This document shows, piece by piece, positions 1 to 14,546 of a DNA stretch of 14,546 nucleotides; positions within the stretch are counted from its first letter, which is position 1, and each line of letters begins with the position of its first letter. The notes beneath the pieces are model-generated. The model had not been told where the DNA came from. It worked only from the letters and a program-made list of their open reading frames with translations, and made no database searches. The position numbers and the translations under genes are program-made. Origin of the DNA: Treponema sp. (GTDB taxonomy: Bacteria > Spirochaetota > Spirochaetia > Treponematales > Treponemataceae); the NCBI GenBank assembly GCA_003455655.1, contig DMQP01000171.1, forward strand, positions 1 to 14,546. The letters run 5' to 3'.

Positions 1-558
1 ACAAACCTTCTTGCTATGAATGCTGCAATCGAATCTGCACACGCTGGTGAAGCAGGTCGCGGTTTTGCTGTTGTTGCAGACGAAATTCGTAAACTTGCAG
101 AACAGTCAAATACTCAGGGTAAGGCAATCAATACAAACCTTAAGACATTGTCTGAATCTATTACTCAAATTACCGAAAGTATTTCTTTGGTTCAGCAGCA
201 GTTTGATGTTATTTACGATCTTGCACAGACAGTTCGCTCTCAGGAACTGGTTGTTAAAAATGCAATGGATGAACAGAACGAAGGTAATAAACAAGTTCTC
301 GAAGCCATGAAGAGCATTAACGATTCAACAACTTCGGTTCGCGACAGTTCTACCGAAATGCTTGAAGGTGCAGACCAGGTTGTTAAAGAAATGGAAGTGC
401 TGGCAGAAGTTACTCGCCGTATTACCGACAGTATGCAGGCAATGAGCCACAGTATTGAAGGCATTACAAAATCTGTTAGAGAAGTTCAGAATAGCTCTGA
501 TCAAAACCAGAGCGACACTGAAAATCTTGCACAAAAGATTGATACTTTCAAACTGTAG
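1..558 (+). CDS. Methyl-accepting chemotaxis protein, C-terminal signalling part (5' truncated)
   Basis: The reading frame is open from base 1, so the start lies outside the window; about 185 residues are visible. The first 35 residues contain the almost invariant tip of the chemoreceptor signalling hairpin ([20 protein letters not shown], then [15 protein letters not shown]), the site that binds CheA and CheW. The rest is the descending heptad-rich helix (coiled coil) rich in S/T/E/Q, as expected of the methylation region, ending in DTFKL. No NWETF-type CheR/CheB docking pentapeptide is present. The sensor domain, HAMP and membrane segments are not in the window, so the ligand cannot be inferred. 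The stop lies 10 bp from the convergent stop of the neighbouring aldolase gene. The family call is near certain. Confidence 0.97.
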
Positions 559-568
559 TTTTAAGAAA

Positions 569-1534
569 CTATCTGCGTTTTAAGTGTATGTCAAATCCGC
601 ATAAGGATTTGTTCAACTGCACAAAAGAAAGGGCTTTGTTTTCACCGGTTCCCGCATACTGTTGGGTTCCGTCTACGAGAGCAAAGCCTTTTTTGTTTAA
701 GTAGTGCAGGGCTCTTTCTATATTGTTTGCTAGAATAGTAATGTGATTTTTTTCTTTACTTGCTGGCTTTAGAATTTCAAAATCGCTTCCGCAGAAAATT
801 GAATCTTCTTTTTCGACTGGCAAAAAACCAAAAGCCTTTAACAAAACAGCCGCATCTTGAACTTGACTTTCGTTTGTACTGTTCATGCCTACATGAGCAA
901 ATTCAAATCCCTGCAAAGAAAGTAATGCTCTTTCTGAAGCAAGTGTTATAGATTCCCAGTCTTGAGACGCAATGTTTTGCTTTGTTGCAATCCATGAACC
1001 ACTTATGGCAATAACATTTTTCTTTTTTGCGTACAAAGTCATATTGTCTGCGTTAATTCCGCCGGTGGGCATAAACATACACTGAGCGAAGGGACCTGCA
1101 AAAGCATCCAGCACTTTTGTTCCCCCTAAAGATTCTGCAGGAAAGAGTTTTAAAACATGCAAGCCTTTTTTGAGTGCTTTTTGAATTTGACTTGCATCAG
1201 CAATACCTGGAATGACTGCAACATTGTTTTTTATGCACCAGTCAACAACTTCTTCATCGTAACCTGGAGAGACAATACATTTTGCTCCTGCACTAACAGC
1301 ACTTTGAGCCTGTTCAACCGAAAGAACAGTTCCCGCAAGAACAAGCATGTCTGGACAGTGTTTGCTTATATTGCGTATGCTTTCTTCGGCAGCAGCAGTG
1401 CGATAGGTTATTTCTGCAATGTCAATTCCTCCGTCTAAAAGCGAGGCTGCCAACTGTACTGCAAGAGATGCATCTTCAAGCTGAATTACGGGAACTATGC
1501 CTGTGTTGCGTATGCGTTCAAAAACTGTATTCAT
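569..1534 (-). CDS. eda: KDPG/KHG aldolase fused to a C-terminal VOC (glyoxalase-like) domain
   Basis: Residues 1-208 form a class I 2-keto-3-deoxy-6-phosphogluconate aldolase TIM barrel, which cleaves KDPG to pyruvate and glyceraldehyde-3-phosphate. Visible active-site residues are E41 and R45 (in AEITYRT), T69 (LAGT), the Schiff-base lysine K129 (HVLKLFPAE) and the phosphate-binding PTGGI (156-160). Typical Eda proteins are about 205-215 residues; this one is 321. Residues about 210-321 look like a VOC/glyoxalase half-barrel (AHVGMNS, NHITI, GFDIHL), with possible metal ligands H214, H264 and E253 or H317. Similar extensions occur on KDPG aldolases of some anaerobic Firmicutes (from memory); their role is unknown to me. 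The start is the ATG giving MNTVFERIRNTGIVPVI, typical of the family; no Shine-Dalgarno precedes it. It probably serves sugar-acid breakdown. It is divergent from galT across 45 bp. Confidence 0.92.
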   Translation of the reverse strand: MNTVFERIRNTGIVPVIQLEDASLAVQLAASLLDGGIDIAEITYRTAAAEESIRNISKHCPDMLVLAGTVLSVEQAQSAVSAGAKCIVSPGYDEEVVDWCIKNNVAVIPGIADASQIQKALKKGLHVLKLFPAESLGGTKVLDAFAGPFAQCMFMPTGGINADNMTLYAKKKNVIAISGSWIATKQNIASQDWESITLASERALLSLQGFEFAHVGMNSTNESQVQDAAVLLKAFGFLPVEKEDSIFCGSDFEILKPASKEKNHITILANNIERALHYLNKKGFALVDGTQQYAGTGENKALSFVQLNKSLCGFDIHLKRR

Positions 1535-1549
1535 AATTCTAGTATATCA
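1535..1549 (-). promoter_or_regulatory. Promoter of the aldolase gene, leaderless geometry
   Basis: Read on the minus strand, TATACT (1546-1541) is preceded by TGA, an extended -10 (TGn) element, and is followed by exactly 6 nt (AGAATT) before the ATG at 1534. RNA polymerase normally initiates about 7 nt past the -10, which places the start site on the A of the ATG. No Shine-Dalgarno is present. No convincing -35 is seen at 16-18 bp (TTGTAG sits at a long 20 bp spacing), consistent with dependence on the extended -10. Confidence 0.6.
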
Positions 1550-1564
1550 CGATTGCGTGCTTTG

Positions 1565-1579
1565 TGCTACAATAAAATC
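1565..1579 (+). promoter_or_regulatory. Promoter of galT, leaderless geometry
   Basis: TACAAT (1568-1573) is preceded by TGC, another extended -10 (TGn) element, and is followed by 6 nt (AAAATC) before the galT ATG at 1580. No Shine-Dalgarno lies upstream. No good -35 is seen. The region where a -35 would fall (about 1545-1550) coincides with the -10 of the divergent aldolase promoter, so the two polymerases could not bind at the same time. Confidence 0.6.
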
Positions 1580-3091
1580 ATGGACATTTATGAAGCAATC
1601 AATGCATTAACAGGTTATGGCCTTACTACAGGTCTTATTGAACAGGAAGATATTATTTACACTCAAAACCGCCTTTTGGAAACTTTACAACTTGATGGTT
1701 TTGAAAGCGCAGAAAAAGCAGAAAGAATTCCAGACACTAAGCGTGAAGAACTCGAAGGAATTCTTAAGGTTATGCTCGATTATGCTGCAAGTCATAAACT
1801 CATTGCAGAAGACAGTGTTGTCTATCGTGATCTCTTTGACACAAAACTCATGGGTTGCCTTGTTGCTCGCCCTTCTACTGTTGAACAAAAATTTCTTGAA
1901 GAATACAAAAAGTCTCCCGTGCAGGCAACTGACTGGTACTACCGTTTTTCTCAAGACACCGACTACATTCGCCGTTACCGCATTTGCAAAGATGTAAAGT
2001 GGAAGACAAAAACAGAATACGGTGATATAGACATTACAATCAATTTGTCTAAACCAGAAAAAGATCCCAAAGCTATAGCTGCAGCTCGGAATGCTCCACA
2101 AGGTGGATACCCTGCTTGTCTTTTGTGTAAACAGAATGTGGGTTATGCAGGTCGCGTAAATCATGCAGCTCGTCAAAATCATAGAACCATTGCATTAAAA
2201 CTTGCTGGTAAAGAGTGGGGTTTACAGTATTCGCCTTATGTGTATTACAACGAACACTGTATTGTTTTTAGTGCAGAACATACCCCTATGAAAATTTGTC
2301 GCGAAACTTTTATGAGTCTTTTTGATTTTGTAAAATTGTTTCCTCATTATACCATTGGCAGTAACGCAGATCTTCCTATTGTTGGCGGTTCTATTTTGTC
2401 GCACAATCACTTTCAGGGCGGTCGCTATGAGTTTGCAATGGCAAAGGCTCCTGTTGAAGAAACATTTTCTGTTCACGGTTATGATGATGTAACTTGTGGA
2501 ATTGTTAAATGGCCCATGAGTGTTATTCGTTTAAGTTCAACAAACTCAGATCGCATTGTCTTGCTTGCAGATAAAATTCTTTCTGTGTGGAGAGCCTACA
2601 CTGATGTCGAAGCCTTTATTTATGCAGAAACTGACGGTGAAAAACATAACACAATTACACCTATTGCTCGTATGCGCGATGACCGATTCGAACTTGATTT
2701 AGTTTTGCGTAACAACATAACTACCGACGAACATCCGCTGGGAGTTTTCCATCCTCATGCAGAACTGCATCATATTAAGAAAGAAAACATTGGTCTTATA
2801 GAAGTTATGGGTCTTGCTGTTCTTCCTTCACGGCTTAAAACTGAACTTGCAGACTTGGGTGAAGCAATTGTAACAGGACGAGACATTGCTTCTGATCCTC
2901 AGTTGAATAAACATGCAGATTGGGTTAAAAGTTTTCTTCCCAAGTATGAAAGTATTACCACAGAAAATATAGAAGAAATAATCCATAACGAAACAGGTCT
3001 TGTTTTTGCTCAGGTTTTGGAACATGCTGGTGTGTACAAACGAAATGAGCAAGGCAAAAAAGCATTTAGAAAATTTATTTCAGCATTATAA
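1580..3091 (+). CDS. galT: UDP-glucose--hexose-1-phosphate uridylyltransferase, class II
   Basis: The 503-residue protein matches the Firmicutes-type (class II) GalT family in length and start (MDIYEAINALTGYGL). It transfers UMP from UDP-glucose to galactose-1-phosphate in the Leloir pathway, in the cytoplasm. The active-site motif SHNHFQGG is at residues 274-281, with H275/H277 equivalent to the HxH nucleophile region of the HIT-related fold. A YPACLLCKQNVGYAGR segment (177-191) and the C-terminal HAGVYKRNEQGKKAFRKF block are also family hallmarks. The ATG at 1580 is chosen over an in-frame TTG at 1553, because family members begin here and the -10 element overlaps the upstream extension. 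asnA follows after 25 bp. galK and galE are not in the window. Confidence 0.95.
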   Translation: MDIYEAINALTGYGLTTGLIEQEDIIYTQNRLLETLQLDGFESAEKAERIPDTKREELEGILKVMLDYAASHKLIAEDSVVYRDLFDTKLMGCLVARPSTVEQKFLEEYKKSPVQATDWYYRFSQDTDYIRRYRICKDVKWKTKTEYGDIDITINLSKPEKDPKAIAAARNAPQGGYPACLLCKQNVGYAGRVNHAARQNHRTIALKLAGKEWGLQYSPYVYYNEHCIVFSAEHTPMKICRETFMSLFDFVKLFPHYTIGSNADLPIVGGSILSHNHFQGGRYEFAMAKAPVEETFSVHGYDDVTCGIVKWPMSVIRLSSTNSDRIVLLADKILSVWRAYTDVEAFIYAETDGEKHNTITPIARMRDDRFELDLVLRNNITTDEHPLGVFHPHAELHHIKKENIGLIEVMGLAVLPSRLKTELADLGEAIVTGRDIASDPQLNKHADWVKSFLPKYESITTENIEEIIHNETGLVFAQVLEHAGVYKRNEQGKKAFRKFISAL

Positions 3092-3116
3092 AACAAAAAT
3101 AGAAGGAGGCACCTGT

Positions 3117-4151
3117 ATGTCAAAAATTACTATTCCCGCCGGATACAAACCCTTGTTGGGAAAAAAAGAAACCGAAAACGCAATTGTTATGCTAAAGAAT
3201 TTTTTTCAGCTTGAACTTTCTACCGAACTGAGTCTTACTCGTGTTACTGCGCCACTTTTTGTGCGTTCGGGTTTAGGTATTAACGATGATTTAAACGGCG
3301 TTGAACGTCCTGTTTCTTTCCCTGTAAAAGATTTGGGAGAAGCAAAACTTGAAATTGTTCATTCGCTTGCAAAGTGGAAGCGCATGAAAGTTTCAGAACT
3401 GTCACTTGCTCCTGGTTTTGGAATCTATACTGATATGAATGCAATTCGCGCTGACGAAGAATTAGACAACTTACATTCACTTTATGTAGATCAGTGGGAC
3501 TGGGAACTGTGTATTCGTAAAGAAGACAGAAACATTGCTTTCTTAAAAGATATTGTTTCTAAAGTGTACCGTTGTCTTAAACGCACAGAATTTTACATTT
3601 ATGACCGTTACGAAAACATTACTCCTGTTTTGCCTGAACATATTACTTTTGTCTATGCAGATGATTTGCAGCGAGAATATCCAAATCTTACGCCAAAAGA
3701 ACGCGAAACAGAAGTTACTAAAAAGTATGGTGCAGTCTTTATTATTGGCATTGGCGGAAAACTTCCCGACGGAACAATTCACGACGGTCGTGCTCCAGAT
3801 TATGACGACTGGATTACTGAATGTGACGGTCACCGTGGTTTAAACGGAGATATCATGGTGTGGAACCCAGTGCTTAATTCTGCTATGGAACTTTCATCAA
3901 TGGGTATTCGCGTAAGTCCAGAATCTCTTAAAGCACAACTTGCAGAACGAGGTTGCCCAGAACGCGCAAAGTTAGAGTTCCACCAGAAGCTGTTAAGTGG
4001 AAAATTGTCTCAGACCTTAGGTGGAGGAATAGGTCAGTCTCGTTTGTGTATGTATTTTTTACGAAAGGCACATATTGGAGAAGTTCAAGTAAGCACTTGG
4101 CCCGAAGATATGCTTGCAACTTGTGACAAAGCAGGAGTTCCTATTCTCTAA
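3117..4151 (+). CDS. asnA: Aspartate--ammonia ligase (asparagine synthetase A)
   Basis: The 344-residue cytoplasmic enzyme makes asparagine from aspartate, ATP and ammonia, using a class II aminoacyl-tRNA-synthetase-like fold. It aligns end to end with E. coli AsnA as I remember it. Conserved blocks include GINDDLNG (54-61), EIVHSLAKWKR (79-89), YVDQWDWE (123-130), GIGGKLPDG (211-219), RAPDYDDW (225-232), GLNGDIMVWNPVL (241-253), ELSSMGIRV (258-266) and GGGIGQSR (302-309). The ATG at 3117 is preceded by a strong Shine-Dalgarno, AAGGAGG (3103-3109), with 7 nt spacing; earlier in-frame ATGs lie inside galT and lack this. Its TAA overlaps the ATG of the next gene by one base (TAATG), indicating translational coupling. 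Pairing with galT is metabolically unexpected. Confidence 0.96.
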   Translation: MSKITIPAGYKPLLGKKETENAIVMLKNFFQLELSTELSLTRVTAPLFVRSGLGINDDLNGVERPVSFPVKDLGEAKLEIVHSLAKWKRMKVSELSLAPGFGIYTDMNAIRADEELDNLHSLYVDQWDWELCIRKEDRNIAFLKDIVSKVYRCLKRTEFYIYDRYENITPVLPEHITFVYADDLQREYPNLTPKERETEVTKKYGAVFIIGIGGKLPDGTIHDGRAPDYDDWITECDGHRGLNGDIMVWNPVLNSAMELSSMGIRVSPESLKAQLAERGCPERAKLEFHQKLLSGKLSQTLGGGIGQSRLCMYFLRKAHIGEVQVSTWPEDMLATCDKAGVPIL

Positions 4152-5140
4152 TGCAAAGTACAAAAGGTGAGGTCGCGTTTTCTATAGATTCTCTGCTTGA
4201 ACAGCCAGGAAAACTTTCTGAACGCGGTGTCACCGAATTGTATTTACACGACGAAGCACTTTCTAAAGATCGAAAAAAAATTATACAAGTTCTAGAACTT
4301 CTTTCGCAAAAAGATTCTCCCTTTGTGTCTATACTTACAAATGTACAAACAATAGATCGAGAACTTGCACAAAAAGCTGCAGACTCTTTGTGTTCACTTG
4401 AAATACCACTTGTTGCAAGTGTTAAAGGAGAGGCTTTGCTTTTCGATAAACATTTGTTTGCAAAAAAAGCCGTACTCTTAAATGAAGCAGGTGCTGTTTT
4501 TGGTTTTTCTTTAGACTGGGGCCTTTTAGCTAATGACCGTGCAAAACTTTTTCGCGAACGTTTAGATTTTGCCATAGACCAGTATCCGAATCATATTGAT
4601 TTTCCGCAATTAGAATCTGGAGAAATTGCAAAGAGTACCGCAGTTTTTTCTTCTCGTGATATGGAACTGTGTGCAGATCTTGCCTTTGCCTGTCAAACTT
4701 TTTATTCAGAAGGAAGGGCAGTTCCTTGGTTTAAGACTGTGCTTGAAAGTTTACGCATAAAACCAGCAGCTTTCTTTTCTGATTTTTCTGAATGGCAGCG
4801 ATGCAATAACTGTGGTCGTAGTGACACTTCTTTTGACCCTTATAAAATTCCACATGCTGAACTTGAAAAAATGCAGCTTTTATTTCTTGAACAAAAATAC
4901 GAAGAGAAAAATCGTTCTATGTGGTTTTCTGCTGTAAGTGATATTGTTCGCATTAACGGAGCTTTTTCGAGAGTTGTTGCAGAACACGAAGACTGTGAAC
5001 TTGAACTTTCCTATAACCCCGATGATTTACTTTCTCCAGATGCATACGACATTGCACATTTTTGTGATACTGTTCCTATGGAAAATTGTCGTGTTTCCGT
5101 TTATGACGCTGGAGATGCACCTGACTATCGCCTTGTGTAA
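4151..5140 (+). CDS. Conserved-looking cytoplasmic protein, faintly like a radical-SAM C-terminal region without the cluster motif
   Basis: I do not firmly recognise this 329-residue protein. No signal peptide or membrane helix is visible. Residues 1-145 have alternating strand/helix patches (VTELYLHDE, FVSILTNVQ, IPLVASVKG) compatible with a TIM-barrel-like fold. Residues 137-222 (LDFAIDQYPNHIDFPQL, FSSRDMELC, ACQTFYSEGRAVPWF, WQRCNNCG) recall the C-terminal part of some B12-binding radical-SAM proteins from memory, but there is no CxxxCxxC iron-sulfur motif. The only paired cysteines are C174/C181 and a CxxC at 218-221. Translation is coupled to asnA through TAATG, so it belongs to the galT-asnA operon. 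No separate Shine-Dalgarno is evident. Function unknown. Confidence 0.75.
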   Translation: MQSTKGEVAFSIDSLLEQPGKLSERGVTELYLHDEALSKDRKKIIQVLELLSQKDSPFVSILTNVQTIDRELAQKAADSLCSLEIPLVASVKGEALLFDKHLFAKKAVLLNEAGAVFGFSLDWGLLANDRAKLFRERLDFAIDQYPNHIDFPQLESGEIAKSTAVFSSRDMELCADLAFACQTFYSEGRAVPWFKTVLESLRIKPAAFFSDFSEWQRCNNCGRSDTSFDPYKIPHAELEKMQLLFLEQKYEEKNRSMWFSAVSDIVRINGAFSRVVAEHEDCELELSYNPDDLLSPDAYDIAHFCDTVPMENCRVSVYDAGDAPDYRLV

Positions 5141-5167
5141 AATAATTTTTTTAGCTATACTTTTTTT
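5133..5167 (+). promoter_or_regulatory. Promoter of the VWA/caspase/papain cluster, leaderless geometry
   Basis: TTGTGT (5133-5138) and TATACT (5156-5161) are separated by 17 bp. The -10 is followed by six T residues and then the ATG at 5168, placing the predicted start site at the A of the ATG. The -35 overlaps the stop codon of the preceding gene. No Shine-Dalgarno and no GC-rich terminator hairpin lie between the two genes. Read-through from galT-asnA is therefore possible, but it would reach this ATG without a ribosome binding site. Confidence 0.65.
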
Positions 5168-6982
5168 ATGTCTTTAAGTGAACAATCTGTTATTATTTTA
5201 CTTGATGATCCTTTTCTTTTAACAACGGAACAAAAACTGCTTACTCGATGTTTAAGAAATTGTGTGCATGCACTCCGTGGTTACGCCTATGCAAAAAAGA
5301 AACATTTGTCTATTGCTTTTGCAACACTTTCTTCAGATGCACAATATGATGTTGCTCAAACACTTTCTTTTTCTGATTTTGATAGCTTTTGTGTAGATGA
5401 CAAACTGGTGCCTGCTTATTTTAATACGTGTGGCTTTTCTGCTCTCAACTATTACTTTAGCATGTTGCCGAACAAAACAGCAAATCTTCCCCTTGTTCTT
5501 GTGCTACATGGGAAGGCTGTTGACAGTCAGCAAAATTATATACGATTGTGTTCACTTTCGCAGTTTGTGCATTCAAAAAAAGTGCTTGCTTTTAAATCTG
5601 ACTGGGAGACTGTTCATAAACTTATTTATTCTCCGAAGTCTCTGCCTTTTGCGGATGCAGTTTTAAAACTTTCTTCATTTGTTCAGTCTGCTTCACAGAA
5701 AAAAATCTTTAAGCCACTGTTAATTGCATTGGGCTCAGTATTAGTTTTGTCGATAGCACTTATGCTTGTTGTTCCCCGTGTAAAATCAATTCACAATCCA
5801 TTTGAAGTTTTTACACCAGTGGTTTACAAGACTGTCTATACTGGTGACGGTGACCGCCTTATTCTGCGTGATGCTCCTTCTCGTTCAGGCTTAGAATTGT
5901 TGCGTCTTAACGAAGGTGAAGTTCTTAGAGTTCTTGAAGAAAATATAGCAGATGAAGAAAATGAATTGTGGGACAAAGTTGTTTATCATGGTTTTGAAGG
6001 TTATGTTCACACTGAATATCTTTCTGAAGGAACAGAAGAAAATTACGAAATAACAAATCCTGACACCATGTACACTTACGGTAAGGCTTTGCTTCAAAAT
6101 AATCTGGAAGATGAACATGACGGTTACTACTGGATTCAGACAGCTGCAGATTCTGGCGAAATAACTGCTCAGTGGGAAATGTTTAAATTTTATGACAACG
6201 GTGCTTTCCCAAAAATTGAAAAAGATCCAGACAAAGCGCTGGAGTATTTGCTTGCGATTGATTCAAATGAAAATCCTTATGAACAAGATGAAGCTCTTTA
6301 TTGTAAAAACAAAGCAACTGAAGTTGAAGCAAGTGGAAATAAAGAGCTTGTAGAAAAGTATAAAGCAAAAGCTGCTAAAAAAGAAAGCGATGTAAAAGTG
6401 GTGCGTCGTTCTGCTGCAAAAAAATTAAGTCAGTGGTATTTTTCTTCAAACATAGATCTTGCATCTGAGTATTACAAAAAAGCTTTGTCCTACGGTTTGG
6501 AAGGTGACGCTGACTATATGTATTCACTTGCAATAGGAACTGAATTAAACGAAACAGAAAGTTTAGAATGGCTCAAAAAAGCTTCTGCTTTGGGACATTA
6601 CAATTCTACCGATGTGCTTGCAACCTATTACTGGAATCAAAATATTTATGATGAAGCGTTAAAATGGTTTAAAGAAGCAACAAAATTAACTAACAGTGCA
6701 GAACCTTCTTACTACTGTGGATGGATTTACTATCATCAGTATAAAAATTATTCTTCAGCATTTTCTTATTTTTATAAAGCCTATCAAAGTTATGATTATA
6801 CAGATGAATTTTACAGAGCTTGTTATTACTTAGGTTGGTGTTATGAATACGGGCAAGGAACATATGAAAGTGACTATTATGCACTTGATTTTTACAATCT
6901 TGCACGCGGTCATGTTTCAAATGCAGATGAAGCCTACAATCGCGTTTACAACAGATTATATGGAGGTTCGTCATGGTGGTAA
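5168..6982 (+). CDS. Membrane protein: degenerate VWA-like domain, TM helix, SH3-like domain, Sel1/TPR repeats
   Basis: The product has 604 residues. Residues 6-175 follow the von Willebrand A strand/helix order: VIILLDD where a domain starts, LSIAFATLSSDAQ, GFSALNYYF in place of the GGT-helix, and LVLVLHGKAVD in place of the LLTDG strand. The DxSxS MIDAS motif and the other metal ligands are absent, so it is probably a non-metal scaffold. One TM helix (183-203) follows a basic stretch (QKKIFK), predicting N-in, C-out. Residues about 219-286 resemble a bacterial SH3 domain (RLILRDAPS, GEVLRVLE, WDKVVYHGFEGYVHTEYL). Residues 300-600 carry Sel1/TPR-like helical repeats (for example ALLQNNLEDEHDGYYWIQTAADSG), becoming very tyrosine-rich towards GGSSWW. 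It overlaps the caspase gene by 10 nt. The VWA assignment is inference from pattern; TM and repeats are clear. Confidence 0.85.
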   Translation: MSLSEQSVIILLDDPFLLTTEQKLLTRCLRNCVHALRGYAYAKKKHLSIAFATLSSDAQYDVAQTLSFSDFDSFCVDDKLVPAYFNTCGFSALNYYFSMLPNKTANLPLVLVLHGKAVDSQQNYIRLCSLSQFVHSKKVLAFKSDWETVHKLIYSPKSLPFADAVLKLSSFVQSASQKKIFKPLLIALGSVLVLSIALMLVVPRVKSIHNPFEVFTPVVYKTVYTGDGDRLILRDAPSRSGLELLRLNEGEVLRVLEENIADEENELWDKVVYHGFEGYVHTEYLSEGTEENYEITNPDTMYTYGKALLQNNLEDEHDGYYWIQTAADSGEITAQWEMFKFYDNGAFPKIEKDPDKALEYLLAIDSNENPYEQDEALYCKNKATEVEASGNKELVEKYKAKAAKKESDVKVVRRSAAKKLSQWYFSSNIDLASEYYKKALSYGLEGDADYMYSLAIGTELNETESLEWLKKASALGHYNSTDVLATYYWNQNIYDEALKWFKEATKLTNSAEPSYYCGWIYYHQYKNYSSAFSYFYKAYQSYDYTDEFYRACYYLGWCYEYGQGTYESDYYALDFYNLARGHVSNADEAYNRVYNRLYGGSSWW

Positions 6983-8703
6983 AAAATAAAATAAAACAAT
7001 TTCTTTTGTTCTGTGCGATACTTTCATTTTCTAGAGTTAGTCTTTTTGCTGCACAGTTTGATGCAGAAGAACAAAATGTAATTGTTCAGGAAAATAATCA
7101 AAGCGACGCTTCTCATTCAGAAAGTCAGAAAAAAATTGCTCTTGTTATAGGAAATGCTCGCTACAAAGGAACTTTTGATTCTCTTGCTAATCCTGTCAAT
7201 GACGCAAAAGATTTACAAGGAAAACTTATTGATATTGGTTTTGAAGTAAATTGTATTACCGATGCAGACCGAAAGACAATGTATGAAGCCTTTAAAAAAT
7301 TCTACACAGAATGTCAGACAGCAGATATAGCGCTTTTGTATTATTCAGGTCATGGTGTTGAGTCTAATGGAGAAAATTATCTTATACCGGTGCAAGCAAA
7401 TATATCTTCTGAAGCAGATTTAGACAGTGATGCTGTGCTTTTAAATCGTGTTGTTGAACAAAGCCTTGATGTCTTAGGTGGAGCAAGCGGCGGAAATTTA
7501 GTTGTAATTCTTGATGCTTGTCGTTCAAATCCTCTTGCAAAAACGAGAGGTGCTTCTCGTGGACTTGCCGTTATTGATGCTACTCCTGTTGCAGGTTATA
7601 TCATTGCCTATTCTTGTAGACCAGGTACATTTGCCCTAGACGGTGATGGTAGACATAGTCCCTTTACTGCCGCTCTTTTAAATCATATTGACGAACCCAA
7701 TGTTTCTTTTACAGATATTTTAGGAGTTGTTCGTGGTGAAGTTCAGGAGGCAACGCAAAATATGCAGCTTCCGTCTTATACCGCAGAAATAAGTAGCCCT
7801 CTGTATCTAAACGGAAAAGGAAAAGTCAGTCCTCGAAAAACAACAGGCTCTGTTACAGCAAGTGCTTCTGCACTTTATGTTGTAGTTATTGTTCTTTTGT
7901 GTGTACTGCTTGTTGCAACCGTTACTCTTTTTCTTTTGCTTACAGAACGTGGTCGACTAGCAGTTGCAAAAGCATCTGAATCTGTAGCCCGTGGGGTAAG
8001 TGCTGGTAGAAAAAAAGCAACAGCTTTTGCTCAAGTAGCACAGCAAAAAATCAGCAATGTTAAACAAAGTGTTTTGTCGAAAACAGAATCTAAAAAGGAA
8101 GAACTTGTTCAGCCTGAGATTCAATCAAAAGTGCTTGATTCTGTTGTTGTAGGTAAAAGTCTTATTGTTGCAAAAACACCAGTTACCCTTGCTCAGTGGA
8201 ATGAAGTTATGCAGCAAAATGTCGCTTTGGAAACGGTACAGAAAGACTATCCGGTGACAGGTGTTTCTTGGTATGATGCGCTTTCTTTCTTAAATGCATT
8301 AAGTGTAAAAGATAATCTTGAACCTGTTTACAATCTTTCTGATCCAAATAATGTTCTTGTTGATAACAGTAAAAACGGCTGGCGTCTTCCTTCAAAAAAA
8401 GAATGGCTCAGTGCTGCAGGTCATGCTTCGTTAGTAAATGCAGACAGTCAAATGTGGTATGACAAAAATGCAGAAGGAAGTCTTCATGCCTGTGCACAAA
8501 AAGAAGCAAATAAAGCAGGCTTGTATGATATGTTTGGCTTAGTTTGGGAATGGTGTAGCGACAGCCCTTGTTTAGGTCAGCGTGCTCTTATGGGCGGTTC
8601 TTGGGACTGTGACTGTTCGTGGGCTCTTTCTCGAAAAATGCAATCTGTTCTTGCTTCTTACAAAAGCGATAATACTGGCTTTAGAGGAGTGCGTTCTATA
8701 TGA
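6973..8703 (+). CDS. Exported caspase-family (C14) peptidase with TM helix and C-terminal FGE/sulfatase-modifying-like domain
   Basis: The product has 576 residues. An N-terminal signal sequence (KNKIKQFLLFCAILSF, cleavage near LFA-A, residue 26-27) precedes a caspase/metacaspase p20-like domain (54-280). Its catalytic dyad is visible: H127 in YYSGHG and C183 in ILDACRSNP. Other family marks are KIALVIGNARY, LANPVNDAKDL and SPFTAALL. A TM helix (about 299-323) is followed by a basic linker (324-387), so positive-inside topology places the caspase outside and the rest in the cytoplasm. Residues about 388-576 are a compact FGE/SUMF1-type domain (VTGVSWYDALSFLN, GWRLPSKKEW, AGLYDMFGLVWEWCSD, MGGSWD, TGFRGVRS). 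The start overlaps the upstream gene by 10 nt; GGAGG at 6962-6966 sits 6 nt before the ATG. The FGE cysteine spacing is C546/C548 rather than CxxxxC, so it is probably non-catalytic. Confidence 0.92.
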   Translation: MVVKNKIKQFLLFCAILSFSRVSLFAAQFDAEEQNVIVQENNQSDASHSESQKKIALVIGNARYKGTFDSLANPVNDAKDLQGKLIDIGFEVNCITDADRKTMYEAFKKFYTECQTADIALLYYSGHGVESNGENYLIPVQANISSEADLDSDAVLLNRVVEQSLDVLGGASGGNLVVILDACRSNPLAKTRGASRGLAVIDATPVAGYIIAYSCRPGTFALDGDGRHSPFTAALLNHIDEPNVSFTDILGVVRGEVQEATQNMQLPSYTAEISSPLYLNGKGKVSPRKTTGSVTASASALYVVVIVLLCVLLVATVTLFLLLTERGRLAVAKASESVARGVSAGRKKATAFAQVAQQKISNVKQSVLSKTESKKEELVQPEIQSKVLDSVVVGKSLIVAKTPVTLAQWNEVMQQNVALETVQKDYPVTGVSWYDALSFLNALSVKDNLEPVYNLSDPNNVLVDNSKNGWRLPSKKEWLSAAGHASLVNADSQMWYDKNAEGSLHACAQKEANKAGLYDMFGLVWEWCSDSPCLGQRALMGGSWDCDCSWALSRKMQSVLASYKSDNTGFRGVRSI

Positions 8704-10199
8704 AACGAAGCGTCTTGTGTATAAGTGTTCTTTTAGGCCTTTTGGTAACTTCTTGTTCTCGTAAACTTCCTCATGCAACAGGTCTTTTATTTGATGAACA
8801 AAAGTACGACAGTCTTCCTCGCAAAGCACGCTTAGTAACTCGTTCGTACGAAAATCTTCCCCAGTCGGTAAGTCTTCTTCCTTACACACCTTACCCCGGA
8901 GATCAGGGAAATTATGGAACGTGTGTAGCCTGGTCTACAACTTATGCAGGAATGACAACAGCAGCCTCTGTTATGCAAAACAGAACTTCTCGTTCGTTAA
9001 CTTCAGCAAATGTTTTTTCTCCTTACTATATGTTTCAAATGTGTAACCCAGATTCTGACGGACAAGATGGCATGTATACAGAAGATGCGCTTTTGTTTTT
9101 AAAAGAAGTTGGTGTTCCGCTTAGATCAGAAAAAGAAAAACGCTATGTAGATTATTTTGAAAACTTTGATGCTCCTCATGAATATGAAAAAAGTAAAATG
9201 TTCAAAATAGGTTGGTATGCCACTCTCTTTTACTATTCCGCAGATTCGCAGACAAAAATTCTTTCGGTTAAAAAAAGTCTTTCTGAAAAACATCCTGTCA
9301 TTATTTCTTTTTTAGCAACAGATTCTTTTTGTTATTCAACAGGATACTGGAAACCTTCTGCTTCAGATTCTCCTTCTAAAGGAGGAGGTCATGCAATGCT
9401 TGTTGTGGGTTACGATGATAATACCTATGGCGGAAGTTTCCTTATTCAAAACTCTTGGGGAGAAGACTGGGGTAAGAACGGCTATGTGTGGGTCGCTTAC
9501 GAAGACTTTGCAGAATATACTCGTGGTGCCTATGAAATGGGTTCTTCAATTTTTGAATCAAGCCCACATCCTATTGATGACCCTGTGCCAGAACCAGCTC
9601 CGACTCCCAAACCGCAACCAGTTCCAGAGCCTAAAAAAGAAGTTCTTTATAAAGGTAGTTTTGATTTGCCTGTTAAGTTTGAAGATGGTGGAATGAAACT
9701 TTCGTTTAGTAATGGCATTTATAAAACGACAAAAGCTTACGAGTCACTTACAAAGTTTCAACTGTATATGACTAACACAAAGCCTTGCTATGTCTATGCC
9801 TTTGCATCAGATGAGTCAACGGGAAAAACAAATGTTATTTTCCCTTTAGATAATACTTCGCCTGTGTTAGACTATTCGGAAAACACGGTCGTTTATCCTG
9901 CAGAAGATAAGTATATTCAAATGGATATGGAAGAAGGAACAGACTACTTTGTTGTTCTTTATGCAAGTCATGAATTAGATTTAGAACAAATAATGCAGCA
10001 GTATGAAAATGCAGTAGCAAGTGGAATGTCGGGTCCAGAACATTTTAGTGAACGAGTGACTTATGCTTTGGGAAAAGAAAATGTCATTGATTCAAATATG
10101 GTCACTTTTGAAAAGAATCGAGTAGACTTTACTGCATACATAAGTGCAAATCAAAAACCAAAAGTTCTGCCTATTTTGATCCAGATTGAACATAAGTAG
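8700..10199 (+). CDS. Papain-like (C1A) cysteine protease lipoprotein with DUF4384-like C-terminal domain
   Basis: The product has 499 residues. The first 19 residues form a lipoprotein signal ending LLVTSC, with C19 the predicted lipidated cysteine. Residues about 50-285 are a papain-fold peptidase. Q69 of the oxyanion hole (GDQGNYG), nucleophile C75 (TCVAWS), H231 (GGGHAMLVVGYDD) and N251 (LIQNSWGEDWG) are all present, so it should be active. A Pro/Glu/Lys-rich linker (291-313, PEPAPTPKPQP) leads to a domain (about 315-499) resembling DUF4384 (CYVYAFASDESTG, VIFP, DYFVVLYA), a family often found with caspase-like proteins. There is no inhibitory propeptide of normal length. The ATG overlaps the caspase stop (ATGA), with GAGGAG just upstream. 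It ends inside the convergent MEMO gene. The likely location is the outer face of the inner membrane or the outer membrane. Confidence 0.92.
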   Translation: MKRSVLCISVLLGLLVTSCSRKLPHATGLLFDEQKYDSLPRKARLVTRSYENLPQSVSLLPYTPYPGDQGNYGTCVAWSTTYAGMTTAASVMQNRTSRSLTSANVFSPYYMFQMCNPDSDGQDGMYTEDALLFLKEVGVPLRSEKEKRYVDYFENFDAPHEYEKSKMFKIGWYATLFYYSADSQTKILSVKKSLSEKHPVIISFLATDSFCYSTGYWKPSASDSPSKGGGHAMLVVGYDDNTYGGSFLIQNSWGEDWGKNGYVWVAYEDFAEYTRGAYEMGSSIFESSPHPIDDPVPEPAPTPKPQPVPEPKKEVLYKGSFDLPVKFEDGGMKLSFSNGIYKTTKAYESLTKFQLYMTNTKPCYVYAFASDESTGKTNVIFPLDNTSPVLDYSENTVVYPAEDKYIQMDMEEGTDYFVVLYASHELDLEQIMQQYENAVASGMSGPEHFSERVTYALGKENVIDSNMVTFEKNRVDFTAYISANQKPKVLPILIQIEHK

Positions 10200-11745
10200 C
10201 ATCTTCTTCTTCTGCAAATTGAGCTATTGCAGGAACAAGACCTGTTTCGCTTGTGTATTCAAACAACTCTGTCTTAATGTCTGAATTGTGCCAGTCTAAT
10301 GCAAGAAGTGCACCTTCTATGCTTTTGCCTTCACTGTCATACAAAACTCCTAAGTTCCATACGGTGTGCAGTGCGCTAACATATACCAGTGTGTCGTTTC
10401 TTGCATCATTGTATCGAAGAATGAGTACATCATAATTTGTTTGAAACATAAATAAATCTTTTATGTCTGTTGTCTCATTATTCTGTGCGGTAACAACAAG
10501 AATGCTTACTGTTTGTGCATTGCTTTTTTGAGGAACAAAAGAAGTAAGTTCACTTGCGCTTATGCTTTGAACAAAAAGAGTAGTACCATGTTTTGTTTGT
10601 GTAAAGTTTGTTCCTACTTTAGGGTCAAAGATAAGTGCATCAAAGCCAGACAAAAAGCGTGCTTCCTTACCTGCAAGATCTCGCAGTAAAACTTCTGCAC
10701 TGTCGCTTGCATTTTTGTTTCTGTCCCAAATCCAGTAAGTTCGTATGCCTGCATTTACTTGACCAGAACCTGCAATAAGTATTGTTTGATTTTTTGTACT
10801 TTGGTAATAACCTGTGTCTGTTCTCTGTGTTAAAGTAGAAGTTTTTTGTTTGAATCTGTGTATTTGTTCACGGTAAGTATCGTTGTAAAAAGCCCAGTAT
10901 AAGTGCGAGGTAGATTCAACATCATCTCGGGGAATGAAATCGTAAGTGCTTGTCATGTCTATAAGCACAGGAAGATTAGCTTTTGTAAGGCGATTGTATT
11001 CAGTTAAAAAAGTAAGCGTTTCAGGACTGTCTACTTCTATGTAGCGTGGATCTTCTTTGTTTGCAATTGTGTTTTTTGTAACGCTGTCGTGTAAGGCGGT
11101 CATGCGTGGAATCTGATAGTGTGAACAGTCAACAGATGCAACAATAAGTGCGTCTTCGGGAAGTATATCAGAAAGTACGCGCGCTAAAACTTTCATGCTT
11201 TCAAATTCACTGTCGCTTGCAAGCGGTTTAAGCACTATGGGTAAAAGTGCTGCTTGGGGAAAATACTTTCCTAAAAATGGTGTGTGCGCATAAATGGCAT
11301 GTTCTTGTTGCCATAGATCAGACTGAACGCTTATGCTGTTTGAAAGTTCACTTTGGCAAAGTTTGTGCAGTAAGTCTTTTGCAAGTTCAAGTTTTCCTTG
11401 GGGAGTGCAATAGCTTATGTCGTCTGTGGGAATAGTTATGCAAGCTTTTCCTTTTTCGTAATGATCTGGCCCTATAACAACAATAACAGAAGGTTGTAGT
11501 TTTTGTGCAATCGCTTTGTACATACTGTTTTGTTGTGCAGTTGTTATGTCATGGTGGGGAATCATAACAGAGCGCGGTTTTGCATCTGGCATAATGTATG
11601 CAGCTGATTTTTCGTAAATATGTTGCCACATGCCAATGTCGCCTGGATATTGATACAGAACTTCTGTTTGCGCGTAAGAGTAAGCTGTAAAGAAAAGAAG
11701 AGCAGCACTTAAAACAAGCACTGCTCTTTTTGTATTAAATGTCAT
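10171..11745 (-). CDS. Exported MEMO-family (AmmeMemoRadiSam protein B-like) protein with extra C-terminal domain
   Basis: The product has 524 residues. Residues 1-26 are a signal peptide (MTFNTKRAVLVLSAALLFFT, cleavage near YSYA-Q). Residues about 45-290 carry MEMO motifs: PHHD (63-66, usually PHAG), VVIGPDHY (89-97), EHAIYAHTPFLGKYFP (148-163) and ASVDCSHY (203-210), with H64/H65, H96, H149 and H209 as likely metal ligands. Residues about 295-524 are additional. A few segments (TILIAGSGQVNAG, FDALIFD, YDVLILRY) faintly recall CapA/PgsA-type proteins, but I cannot assign the domain. Usual MEMO proteins are about 260-300 residues and cytoplasmic. The start at 11745 is chosen because it gives the ATGA overlap with the upstream stop; an ATG 21 nt earlier is possible. 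It is the last gene of a two-gene operon, with a 29 bp convergent overlap with the papain-like gene. Function unknown. Confidence 0.85.
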   Translation of the reverse strand: MTFNTKRAVLVLSAALLFFTAYSYAQTEVLYQYPGDIGMWQHIYEKSAAYIMPDAKPRSVMIPHHDITTAQQNSMYKAIAQKLQPSVIVVIGPDHYEKGKACITIPTDDISYCTPQGKLELAKDLLHKLCQSELSNSISVQSDLWQQEHAIYAHTPFLGKYFPQAALLPIVLKPLASDSEFESMKVLARVLSDILPEDALIVASVDCSHYQIPRMTALHDSVTKNTIANKEDPRYIEVDSPETLTFLTEYNRLTKANLPVLIDMTSTYDFIPRDDVESTSHLYWAFYNDTYREQIHRFKQKTSTLTQRTDTGYYQSTKNQTILIAGSGQVNAGIRTYWIWDRNKNASDSAEVLLRDLAGKEARFLSGFDALIFDPKVGTNFTQTKHGTTLFVQSISASELTSFVPQKSNAQTVSILVVTAQNNETTDIKDLFMFQTNYDVLILRYNDARNDTLVYVSALHTVWNLGVLYDSEGKSIEGALLALDWHNSDIKTELFEYTSETGLVPAIAQFAEEEDATYVQSGSK

Positions 11746-12749
11746 CGGTAACGGCGTCCGCCCCATTCAACAACAGCAAAGCCTGAACGACTTGCAGGCG
11801 TCAGTGTTTGTTCCTTTGTTTGAATAGGAGCATCGAGCACTTTGTGATCAAAATACACTCGAATTACAGAATCTGGTTTTGGAGAAACAGTAAGCGGTGC
11901 TTCTGCATTTATTCTTTCTGGTGAGTAGAAGGTAATGAAGATGTAAGGTTTGTTTTGCTTTGTCAGTTCGGGAATCCAGTATTCAATAAAATCTGCAATT
12001 TCTTTTTCGTTTAGTCCGAGAATGGAAAGTTTTTCGGTAAAGAAAGTGTTTAGTTCTGAAGCTTTAACCACAAAACCTTCGCTTGTGTCTATAGGACTTT
12101 CACTGTCTTTGCTTTCCCAGTACAAGTAAGGGTATGTTTCTTTTGTTTTTTGGTCAACAATAGTTCCATCGGGATTAGCAGTTACTTTCCAACCTTTTCC
12201 CATTTCTGGAATTGATTCGGTAAGTCCACCTTGGGGAGCAACACTAACTTTTACCGTTTGTGTTTTTTTGGGGTAAAGGTAAATAACTGGTTTTGCTCTT
12301 TCTGCCATTCCGCCTTGGTACACATAGAACACATAGTTAAAGCGCTTGTAGCGTCCGTCTTTAAACTTTGCAATAAAACGATAGTAGTTTGCCCCAAAAG
12401 TAAGATTGTCGAGTTTACCACCAACGTTGTACATAAATTCAGTTTCTCCTGCTTTGTACTGGGTGAGTGTAAAGTCGTCTATGGGAACTCCAGGAATTTT
12501 CTTTGAACCGTTTTCTAAGTATTCGTCAATGTTTTCTGCAGTTCCACTTGTCCAAATGACGCGTATAGAAACACAATCTGAAGAAACACTACCAGTAAAG
12601 GTGTAGCGGTAGTTGTCAAGATTGTCGGTGTTGTAAACGTATTCGTCATCTCCGTTTTCAGGGTCGGTAATGGTGATGTAAGAGTAACCAGCACCAAAAG
12701 CGGCCGTCAATACTGCCATACAGGCAAAAAAGGCAAAAAATTTCTTCAT
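11742..12749 (-). CDS. Secreted protein of the 'KPVIYLYP' family, function unknown
   Basis: The product has 335 residues. MKKFFAFFACMAVLTAAFGA is a signal peptide, so the protein is exported. Residues about 22-147 are beta-rich and may form an Ig-like sandwich. Residues 152-335 belong to a conserved bacterial family I remember only by its motifs: AKPVIYLYPKKTQTV, GKGWKVTANPDGTI, YPYLYWES, FVVKASELNTFFTEKLSILG, IADFIEYWIPEL, IRVYF and GFAVVEWGG. No catalytic motif is obvious. The ATG at 12749 is chosen over an in-frame one at 12809, because it begins the signal peptide and because the upstream region is a consensus promoter and terminator. Its stop overlaps the ATG of the MEMO gene (ATGA), so the two are translationally coupled and probably act together. 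Confidence 0.85.
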   Translation of the reverse strand: MKKFFAFFACMAVLTAAFGAGYSYITITDPENGDDEYVYNTDNLDNYRYTFTGSVSSDCVSIRVIWTSGTAENIDEYLENGSKKIPGVPIDDFTLTQYKAGETEFMYNVGGKLDNLTFGANYYRFIAKFKDGRYKRFNYVFYVYQGGMAERAKPVIYLYPKKTQTVKVSVAPQGGLTESIPEMGKGWKVTANPDGTIVDQKTKETYPYLYWESKDSESPIDTSEGFVVKASELNTFFTEKLSILGLNEKEIADFIEYWIPELTKQNKPYIFITFYSPERINAEAPLTVSPKPDSVIRVYFDHKVLDAPIQTKEQTLTPASRSGFAVVEWGGRRYR

Positions 12750-12784
12750 ACAGATAGAGTAGAAAAAAAAAGACTGCATGTCAA
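12750..12784 (-). promoter_or_regulatory. Consensus promoter of the KPVIYLYP-MEMO operon, leaderless geometry
   Basis: On the minus strand a perfect TTGACA (12784-12779) is followed by a 17 bp spacer, TACTCT (12761-12756), 6 nt (ATCTGT) and the ATG at 12749. The predicted transcription start is the A of the ATG, and there is no Shine-Dalgarno. The spacer contains the T-tract of the htrA terminator. Confidence 0.75.
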
Positions 12785-12818
12785 TAATGAAGTTCCCCTC
12801 ATAAAGCATGCAGCCTTT
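12763..12818 (-). terminator. Rho-independent terminator of htrA
   Basis: Read on the minus strand, AAAGGCTGCATG (12818-12807) pairs over 12 bp (one G-U) with CATGCAGTCTTT (12780-12769). The 3' arm runs into nine consecutive T residues (12771-12763). The 26-nt loop can fold again as a 6 bp hairpin closed by a GGAA tetraloop (ATGAGG...CTTCAT). It starts about 20 nt after the htrA stop. The 3' arm and T-tract overlap the next promoter. Confidence 0.85.
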
Positions 12819-12838
12819 ATACTTACTGTCAGTCTGTT

Positions 12839-14329
12839 TTAGTTAGGTATACGATAACGGGCGGTTGAAATGGTATGACCGTCAGAATAGACATCAAAGT
12901 AAACTTGAGAATTCTTTTGGGTATCAAGAGCGGCATAGAATTCTTTTACGTTGCTGACACTTGTTCCGTTAACCGCAGTTATAACATCTCCTGTTTGAAG
13001 ACGAAGAGCTGCCGCAGGTGATTTTTCCTGAACACTGGTAATAACCACACCTTTAACGCCTTTTTCTACAGAGAGTCTGTTTCTGAGTGCATCTGTAAGC
13101 GGAGAAATAGTGAATCCTGGCCACAGTTTAGAATTGTCTGCAGAAACTTCTTCGTCGCGACTGTCAATTTTAACCGTAATGGTAACAGTCTGTTTTGCAC
13201 GGCGAACAGTAAAGCTTGCCGTTTGTCCTGCACGCAAGTTTCCAACATCGCGCACTAACTGATCGGTGTCTTTTACTGTTTTTCCGTTAAGAGCGGTAAT
13301 GTAGTCTCCTGCCTGAAGTCCGCCTTTCATTGCTGGGCTTCCTATAAACACTTGTGAAACAAATGAACCTGAAACATCTTCAACTTCCAGTTCCTTTTTG
13401 AAGTCTGTAGTAATATCGGCAAGACTTGCACCCAACCAACCGTATGTTATTTTTCCGTCGCTTATAAACTGGTCAATGGCAGTTTTAATGTTGTTGATAG
13501 GAATAGAAAAGCCTAAGCCTTGACTTCCACCAGATTGAGAGGCAATCCAGGAGTTAATGCCTATGACTTCACCGTAAATGTTTATTAAGGGACCGCCAGA
13601 GTTTCCTTGGTTAATGTCTGCATCTGTCTGAATAAAGTCACTTATAGAACCAATTTGAGCTCCACTACGACCTGTTGCACTAACAATTCCCTGAGTAACA
13701 GAGGCAAAGTATCCCAAAGGGCTTCCCATGGCAAGACAAATGTCTCCCTGTTGAACAAGGTCACTGTCACCCAGTGTTGCAACTGTTATGCTAGAAGGAT
13801 CATCGCACTGGAAAGAGACTAAAGCTATATCCATTCGTTCATCTTTTCCTACTAGAGTGCCTTCGAATTCCCGTTCATCGTTAAGTCTGATAGTGATTTT
13901 TTTAGCATCTCCTGCTACATGTTCATTTGTAAGAACATATACCGTCTTTCCTGTTTTACGCACTATAAAGCCTGAACCCAAACCTTGAGATTCGTATTCG
14001 CGAGTTCCGCTTCCAGAGTCTCCGTTACCAAAGTTAAAAAAGTATTCAAAAGGATTATATGTTTGTACAGTCTGTGTTGTGGTAACATCAACTTCAACAA
14101 CTGCTGGTAACACTTCTGAACTTATGGAACGAAATGTCGTCTGTAGGGCTTGCGTTACCGCCAGTGCATCTGCCGGTATTTTTACTGCCGCTTCTGAAGC
14201 AGAGCGATTTTCTTGAGCAAAAGCTACATTTGCTGAACCTTTATTGACTTTGCATGAAAGTGCAAAAATGCCGAATGCTACAGCTGTTGCAGCGGTAACT
14301 GTTAGTATGCCTTTAGTCCATTTTTTCAT
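12839..14329 (-). CDS. HtrA/DegP-family periplasmic serine protease with two PDZ domains
   Basis: The 496-residue envelope quality-control protease has an N-terminal export signal. It may be cleaved after AFA (residue 38), or processed as a lipoprotein at C26 (FALSC, a loose spirochaete-type lipobox), or remain as an anchor. The trypsin-like domain (about 60-290) has the full triad: H137 (LTNEHVAG), D167 (ERMDIAL) and S244 (QGNSGGPL). A glycine/serine-rich LA-loop-like insert is at 100-112. PDZ1 spans about 296-388 (YGWLGASL, GGLQAGDYITALNG) and PDZ2 about 405-485 (AALRLQTGDVITAVNG). It degrades or refolds misfolded exported proteins, and the PDZ domains bind exposed C-termini. The start is fixed by GGAGG (14343-14339), 9 nt before the ATG. 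It is followed by a strong terminator. Symbol left blank, since degP, degQ and htrA cannot be separated here. Confidence 0.96.
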   Translation of the reverse strand: MKKWTKGILTVTAATAVAFGIFALSCKVNKGSANVAFAQENRSASEAAVKIPADALAVTQALQTTFRSISSEVLPAVVEVDVTTTQTVQTYNPFEYFFNFGNGDSGSGTREYESQGLGSGFIVRKTGKTVYVLTNEHVAGDAKKITIRLNDEREFEGTLVGKDERMDIALVSFQCDDPSSITVATLGDSDLVQQGDICLAMGSPLGYFASVTQGIVSATGRSGAQIGSISDFIQTDADINQGNSGGPLINIYGEVIGINSWIASQSGGSQGLGFSIPINNIKTAIDQFISDGKITYGWLGASLADITTDFKKELEVEDVSGSFVSQVFIGSPAMKGGLQAGDYITALNGKTVKDTDQLVRDVGNLRAGQTASFTVRRAKQTVTITVKIDSRDEEVSADNSKLWPGFTISPLTDALRNRLSVEKGVKGVVITSVQEKSPAAALRLQTGDVITAVNGTSVSNVKEFYAALDTQKNSQVYFDVYSDGHTISTARYRIPN

Positions 14330-14361
14330 GGGAAGAAACCTCCGTCTATTTTCTTACTGCT

Positions 14362-14370
14362 AATATAACA
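14362..14370 (-). promoter_or_regulatory. Probable extended -10 promoter of htrA
   Basis: On the minus strand TGT (14370-14368) precedes TATATT (14367-14362), giving an extended -10. The start site would be near 14355, leaving a leader of about 26 nt that carries the GGAGG ribosome binding site. No good -35 is seen at 16-18 bp, and no recognisable heat-shock operator such as CIRCE is present. Confidence 0.4.
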
Positions 14371-14445
14371 ACTTTTCTGCCATTTGTGTTACTGTTTCTA
14401 TACTAATAACAAAGTTTTATTTTGTTAAGAAATCCTTACTACTTA

Positions 14446-14475
14446 TTGACTAAGACCGTTAAAATCCGCTATTAT
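14446..14475 (+). promoter_or_regulatory. Sigma-70-type promoter for a gene at or beyond the right edge
   Basis: TTGACT (14446-14451), an 18 bp spacer and TATTAT (14470-14475), or the overlapping TATATC (14473-14478), predict a start site near 14482-14486 on the + strand. It is divergent from htrA. The stretch between the two promoters (about 14371-14445) is AT-rich, and I see no gene in it. Confidence 0.6.
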
Positions 14476-14485
14476 ATCCTACATT

Positions 14486-14536
14486 ATGTTTTTGCTTGTA
14501 GGGACCCGCTACTCCCTGCAGGAAATATGTTATTAG
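14486..14536 (+). other. Possible 16-residue leader peptide
   Basis: An ATG lying a few bases after the predicted start site opens a 16-codon frame (MFLLVGTRYSLQEICY) ending at TAG 14534-14536. The stop overlaps AGAGG (14535-14539), a plausible Shine-Dalgarno for a gene starting at or just past base 14547. No single amino acid dominates, so classical amino-acid attenuation is not supported. An alternative is that the next gene itself starts at ATG 14527, whose frame is open to the window end. Low confidence. Confidence 0.25.
14495..14522 (+). other. Leader RNA hairpin
   Basis: CTTGTAGGGA (14495-14504) pairs with TCCCTGCAGG (14513-14522) over 10 bp, including two G-U pairs, around an 8-nt loop CCCGCTAC. 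It lies in the predicted 5' leader and is not followed by a U-tract, so it is not a terminator. It could be a binding site for an autoregulatory protein or a translation-control element. I cannot assign it to a known RNA family. Confidence 0.5.
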
Positions 14537-14546
14537 AGGTTTTTAA

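Follow-up and report, generated by a model that had tools for sequence, protein, structure and literature searches.

Here we present a computational analysis of three overlapping genes, A, B and C, in a stretch of 14,546 nt from Treponema sp. (GCA_003455655.1, contig DMQP01000171.1, positions 1-14,546, forward strand), referred to below as the window. Gene A encodes a membrane protein with a putative VWA-like domain, gene B a caspase joined to a domain resembling formylglycine-generating enzyme (FGE), and gene C a papain-like lipoprotein. In Treponema this trio is one gene unit. The core of the system is the caspase/papain pair encoded by B and C, which is wider than the trio; it is exported and, elsewhere, has no internal transmembrane (TM) helix. 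The Treponema trio is a membrane-tethered variant of this exported pair, with gene A added. The function that we tentatively propose, with a little less than even confidence, is a caspase-controlled envelope protease cascade, which A and the FGE-like domain would link to the cytoplasm. The three genes are open reading frames (ORFs) with the following layout.

Gene A: 5168-6982, plus strand, 604 amino acids (aa); VWA-like domain at residues 1 to ~158 (predicted cytoplasmic), TM helix at 184-202, SH3 domain at 230-286 and Sel1/TPR-like repeats (predicted periplasmic)
Gene B: 6973-8703, plus strand, 576 aa; signal peptide at 9-27, caspase (p20) domain at 53-277, TM helix at 303-321, FGE-like domain at 387-574
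Gene C: 8700-10199, plus strand, 499 aa; lipoprotein signal (C19), pro-like segment at ~20-53, papain-like domain at ~54-285, Pro-rich linker, C-terminal DUF4384

The trio is one gene unit in Treponema

According to the ORF coordinates, A and B overlap by 10 nt and B and C by 4 nt, as a first-pass annotation of this DNA had described. The same annotation had taken the three genes as a functional unit and had proposed a synteny check in other spirochaetes. We searched 196 genomes from the Treponema genus of genome G003 with a C profile and obtained matches in 19 of them. Eleven matches were full length, one was a contig-end fragment (G200, counted as without C), and seven covered the protease core only, with E about 1e-24, and were taken as other C1 proteins. 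Five of the 11 full-length genomes already belonged to the set of best-match loci described in the next section, and six were new. The caspase-FGE gene lies directly upstream of C in all 11 genomes, and an A-family gene lies directly upstream of B in all 10 genomes with contig room, G001 being left out of the latter count because its contig starts about 50 bp before B. The A-B-C order was therefore kept wherever it could be seen, which bears out the idea of a unit.

For the 11 loci whose contigs leave room, one of them the window, we compared the proteins encoded on the flanks. Only three pairs of loci share a neighbourhood (G003/G189 with nine shared proteins, G113/window with eight and G009/G037 with three, against 0-2 for the other pairs), so the loci represent about eight neighbourhoods. 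Globally, a PF00656 caspase was detected in 52 of the 196 genomes: all 11 with a full-length C versus 41 of the 185 without (Fisher p 2e-7, the genomes not being independent and their relatedness being ignored). B was the only caspase found in 10 of the 11 C-positive genomes, and G002 has two. Since the PF00656 search overlooked the caspase beside C in G008 (L024), these counts are lower bounds.

The caspase/papain pair extends beyond Treponema

A C-profile scan of species genomes returned at least 523 relatives, of which the 80 best, together with the window, make up a set of 81 C loci. A caspase gene lies within 4 kb of C in 55 of them. In 49 the distance is within 400 nt, with the caspase upstream on the same strand in 26, downstream on the same strand in 20 and upstream on the opposite strand in three; in the other six it is 0.4-4 kb. 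The paired loci carry the labels Spirochaetota, Bacteroidota, Chlorobiota, Campylobacterota, Pseudomonadota and Verrucomicrobiota, and one locus labelled Ignavibacteriota has a caspase neighbour at 0.5 kb. As some of the loci are contigs of metagenome-assembled genomes (MAGs), whose label may be wrong, we speak of at least six phyla. The side on which the caspase stands relative to C changed at least three times on the starred branches of a quick C tree; the linkage between the two genes thus outlives rearrangement.

Because the 81 loci are best matches to a Treponema profile, we made an extra draw of 296 Bacteroidota genomes, 19 of which had C matches at E 1e-40 or better. In nine of these genomes the C match has E <1e-120: the distance from C to a caspase is at most about 600 nt in seven and 2.8 kb in G330, and G438 has none. 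The centre genome G008 had been picked for having the pair (L024), and the independent count is therefore six of eight, plus G330. The remaining five of the 19 matches were weaker or split, and their neighbourhoods were left out of the count; the contig of one of them, in G394, also carries a caspase, about 3 kb from C. Overall, the strong Bacteroidota C are mostly paired, whereas the weaker ones counted are unpaired, so the pairing characterises this clade of C and does not extend to its more distant relatives.

Six of the eight partner caspases scanned carry fused repeats: WG plus Sel1, MORN (two), WD40 or TPR (two). In L138 (G217, Bacteroidota), two tandem C genes adjoin a caspase and a caspase-FGE gene; a caspase-FGE partner therefore also exists outside Spirochaetota. 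In two Treponema-labelled MAGs (L055 9749-11296 and L054 11432-12625), a C without a found caspase stands next to a convergent exported PPC-domain protein, and L069 resembles this arrangement by eye.

Both proteases have intact active sites

The two complete cysteine-protease active sites that the first-pass annotation had named were confirmed and are kept across relatives. B matches Pfam Peptidase_C14 at 53-277 (E 6e-38) and has the full dyad H127/C183; of 54 neighbouring caspases, 53 keep the His and Cys, and the remaining one (L005) is truncated. C matches Pfam Peptidase_C1 at 68-268 (E 1e-17), takes a papain fold by model and has the full set Q69/C75/H231/N251. Across the C loci the catalytic Cys, His and Asn are present in 81 of 81 and the Gln in 80 of 81, where the missing one belongs to a C cut by a contig end. 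A fold search with the whole of C returned the papain part, and the alignment of the model starts at residue 25 for xylellain and at residues 6-25 for several cathepsin pro-forms. The pro-like segment of C thus falls inside the range that aligns with xylellain and pro-cathepsins. C differs from the xylellain-type C1A peptidase (PDB 3ois) in its lipid anchor, its DUF4384 and its adjoining caspase. The DUF4384 match, at 351-422 (E 7.5e-5), reached 23.2 bits, below the cut-off of 27.

By sequence profile, the closest solved caspase-fold relatives of B are MALT1, the human paracaspase, which is a cytoplasmic signalling protease with no known FGE domain or TM helix. D77 and D181 of B align with MALT1 P1-pocket residues; all 54 partner caspases have the former and 53 of the 54 the latter. 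From this MALT1-like pocket we predict that the caspase of B cuts after Arg or Lys.

The FGE-like domain matches Pfam FGE-sulfatase at 387-574 (E 1.5e-19, above cut-off), and its closest solved relative is TvpA, a variable protein of Treponema denticola (PDB 2y3c, E 1e-50). We aligned the domain by eye to human FGE, at what we take to be the positions of the enzyme's cysteine pair. The window protein has one of the two cysteines, and the pair is complete in only one of 11 trio B proteins (L004; by eye); the domain in the window is for this reason probably a ligand-binding module. Homologues P0014-P0016 keep both cysteines, and the domain may therefore be an enzyme in some relatives. A diversity-generating element at the FGE-like end of B was also considered and rejected: the 3' end of B has no repeat in the window (no reverse transcriptase search was made elsewhere).

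In A, Pfam recognised SH3_3 at 230-286 and Sel1 repeats. The N-terminal domain gave no Pfam match, though fold prediction lends moderate support to the VWA-like fold claimed for it. The metal site of VWA domains, MIDAS, has the pattern DxSxS...T...D; the DxSxS motif is absent from A of the window and is not conserved in A-family alignments.

The trio is tethered to the membrane

Hydropathy and the lipobox pattern agree with the TM helix that had been assigned to each of A and B and with the lipobox of C. A has a single TM helix (184-202), B has a signal peptide (9-27) and an internal TM helix (303-321), and in C the only hydropathy feature is the N-terminal signal, with a lipobox that ends at C19. 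These features set the trio apart. An internal TM helix was found in six of six trio partner caspases versus none of 47 non-trio ones, a count that leaves out one incomplete partner and includes several caspases incomplete at contig ends; it is also present in 11 of 11 trio B proteins. On the other side of the pair, a lipobox is present in every trio C (12 of 12, from 11 genomes plus the window), versus at most seven of 75 other C under a lenient pattern, and several of those seven resemble ordinary signal peptides. After the B TM helix, K+R exceed D+E in 10 of 11 trio B proteins (the exception being L104). The signal peptides and this positive charge are consistent with the earlier topology claim, and the FGE-like domain is by prediction on the cytoplasmic side.

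Transcription and neighbouring genes

The first-pass annotation had placed the genes behind one promoter. This was not borne out by our consensus scan, in which no site of the sigma-70 type turned up on the plus strand just before A; in the region as a whole, 15 matches against 16.9 expected are at chance level. A starts 27 nt past the stop of the upstream gene, so transcriptional read-through from that gene into A is possible. The neighbours are listed below.

4151-5140, plus strand: 329-aa protein, no Pfam match at E 1
10171-11766, minus strand: Memo-like/AmmeMemoRadiSam B-type protein, Pfam Memo E 7e-19
12839-14329, minus strand: DegP/HtrA-like protease with PDZ domains, a third exported protease less than 5 kb from the trio

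The 329-aa gene fills the space from the stop of a preceding gene, asnA-like by eye, to 27 nt before A. It also adjoins the trio in G113 (L100), where a similar DegP/HtrA-like gene lies nearby. The Memo-like gene converges on C with a 29-nt tail overlap, and its last ~290 residues gave no strong match.

A proposed cascade and its alternatives

In the cascade that we propose, A and B would sit in the inner membrane. Their cytoplasmic parts would be the VWA-like and the FGE-like domain, their periplasmic parts the SH3/Sel1 repeats and the caspase, and C would be lipid-anchored beside them. A change sensed by the SH3/Sel1 part of A, or by the cytoplasmic domains, would bring the caspases together and activate them, either through clustering or via A. 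The caspase would then remove the N-terminal pro-like segment of C (residues about 20-53), which is rich in basic residues, and this trimming would open the active site of the papain-like protease, which could then cleave proteins of the envelope or the surface. We infer the complex, the order of caspase before papain, the cleavage site, the trigger and the substrate. Position 42 of C is K/R in 85% of the 55 caspase-paired C versus 69% of the 26 unpaired ones, and position 48 in 65% versus 46%. Such caspase-dependent conservation is suggestive; since the difference is small, the trimming step is a guess.

Several points weigh against the cascade. C with a caspase next to it have only slightly more basic residues in the N-terminal segment; these residues may therefore be structural and not linked to cleavage. 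No caspase was found near C in 26 of the 81 loci (about a third), five of which were set aside as contig-edge cases in the tree count; a broader caspase profile run on these 26 loci added one match, about 6 kb away in L042. Likewise, none of the five Bacteroidota C with E 1e-76 to 1e-95 has a caspase nearby. C can therefore do without one. The predicted specificity takes D77 and D181 to form an acidic S1 pocket for Arg/Lys, which we assume from the residue roles in MALT1. As for the tethering, some non-trio caspases are incomplete, so a TM helix may lie outside their visible part. The topology was derived from hydropathy only, and the K/R excess after the B TM helix is weak in L102 and absent in L104.

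A rather unlikely, though not far-fetched, alternative is that B and C are two independent envelope or surface proteases that are merely co-expressed, for instance for the processing of surface proteins or the digestion of peptides, with A and the FGE-like domain as anchors. The C loci without a caspase fit this explanation, as do the other neighbours of C, which include a subtilase with a type IX secretion system (T9SS) tail in L041 and, at some caspase-less loci, Sel1 or FGE-like proteins (10 proteins scanned). The flanks of seven trio loci, mainly housekeeping among the matches listed (25 of 110 families), fit it as well. What it leaves unexplained is a pairing that persists over six phyla and at least three changes of gene order, and the fact that in 10 of 11 C-positive genomes the sole detected caspase adjoins C.

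An anti-phage or inter-bacterial conflict system, in which the caspase would sense attack and the papain-like protease would kill or disarm the envelope, appears improbable to us. VWA, caspase, FGE-like and Sel1 domains do recur in conflict systems (PMC7159879; statements on this and the other cited papers refer to parts of their text), the trio is patchily distributed (11 of 196 genomes of the genus), and in L004 it lies near type I restriction genes (14508-19261, about 3 kb downstream). On the other hand, PADLOC 2.0 matched B only weakly, to one generic caspase model (38 bits), and gave nothing for A or C. Among the matches listed for 55 flanking proteins of seven loci (25 of 151 families), the strong defence matches are the L004 restriction genes; the other matches there are partial or unassigned, and only partly traced, so that this is not a clean negative. 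Neither the trio nor the four genes scanned around it (window from 4151 on) matched a MoxR AAA+ ATPase or an inactive STAND partner, and three of the 55 flanking proteins of other trio loci had AAA matches, whose locus was not traced. Our search of plasmids and phages returned no close C, the two plasmid matches covering at least 80% being 25-26% identical. With listed flanking families that are mainly housekeeping and restriction genes seen at one of the seven loci, L004, a defence role for the trio is not favoured.

An operon that modifies sulfatases, with the FGE-like domain as a working formylglycine-generating enzyme or a related iron enzyme, is very improbable, as its Pfam match, the complete cysteine pairs of L004 and P0014-P0016 and a speculation on joint proteolysis and formylglycine modification (PMC3501461) are set against the incomplete pair in the window, which disfavours a catalytic FGE there, and in 10 of the 11 trio B proteins, TvpA as closest solved relative and a trio without a sulfatase.

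Comparison with known systems

The first-pass annotation knew of no described system with this arrangement, and we likewise found no description of the pair or the trio among the full-text literature matches listed, a scope that leaves subscription journals largely outside. Its statement that VWA, caspase, FGE-like and DUF4384 domains recur together agrees with the conflict systems mentioned above and with fusions of DUF4384 to caspases elsewhere (PMC6426788, PMC7475262). Caspase-FGE fusions, caspase-DUF4384 fusions and vWA/caspase/FGE-like/Sel1 conflict systems are thus already known. In the metacaspases/orthocaspases with FGE-sulfatase (Asplund-Samuelsson 2012, PMC3501461), the caspase is followed by an FGE-like domain, as in B; two TM helices separate these domains in a cyanobacterial variant, where B has one, and fusions to Sel1 or WD40 are frequent. 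Of the 217 metacaspase operons of that study, 23 contain proteolysis domains other than C14; they may include the present pair unnamed, although the parts of its text considered here name no papain-like DUF4384 partner. Compared with these systems, the trio adds an exported caspase, a co-conserved protease and the VWA-SH3-Sel1 gene.

The vWA-centric iSTAND ternary and EACC1-caspase systems (Kaur 2020, PMC7159879) share with the trio vWA, TM, Sel1, FGE-like (FGS) and caspase domains, as well as a membrane-linked caspase beside a second TM protein. Unlike them, the trio has neither a MoxR AAA+ ATPase nor a STAND NTPase, and EACC1 was not recognised in it (no search with an EACC1 profile was made); it also differs in exporting both proteases and in its papain-like partner. 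In EACC1-caspase System 4 the 5' gene is an EACC1 TM domain and the 3' gene a caspase, whereas the 5' gene of the trio is VWA-TM-SH3-Sel1. B matches the NCBIfam EACC1-associated caspase model below its cut-off (64.7 vs 140 bits).

Implications

A broader proposal, which we regard as doubtful at present, is a class of envelope cascades in at least six phyla, in which an exported, Arg/Lys-specific paracaspase-like protease would activate a papain/cathepsin-like DUF4384 protease; the Treponema form would be a trans-membrane gated caspase-to-cathepsin relay outside the cytoplasm. The role of prokaryotic caspase homologues is a long-standing question, and to our knowledge few partners or substrates of the exported ones have been described. 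A protease that is conserved beside the caspase and whose own active site is intact offers a concrete candidate for a caspase substrate or effector, approachable with two purified proteins. If the proposal is true, the cytoplasmic VWA-like and FGE-like domains and the periplasmic SH3/Sel1 scaffold of Treponema would gate a tethered caspase and a lipid-anchored papain. The trio itself illustrates how a protease pair can become fixed at the inner membrane and connected with the cytoplasm.

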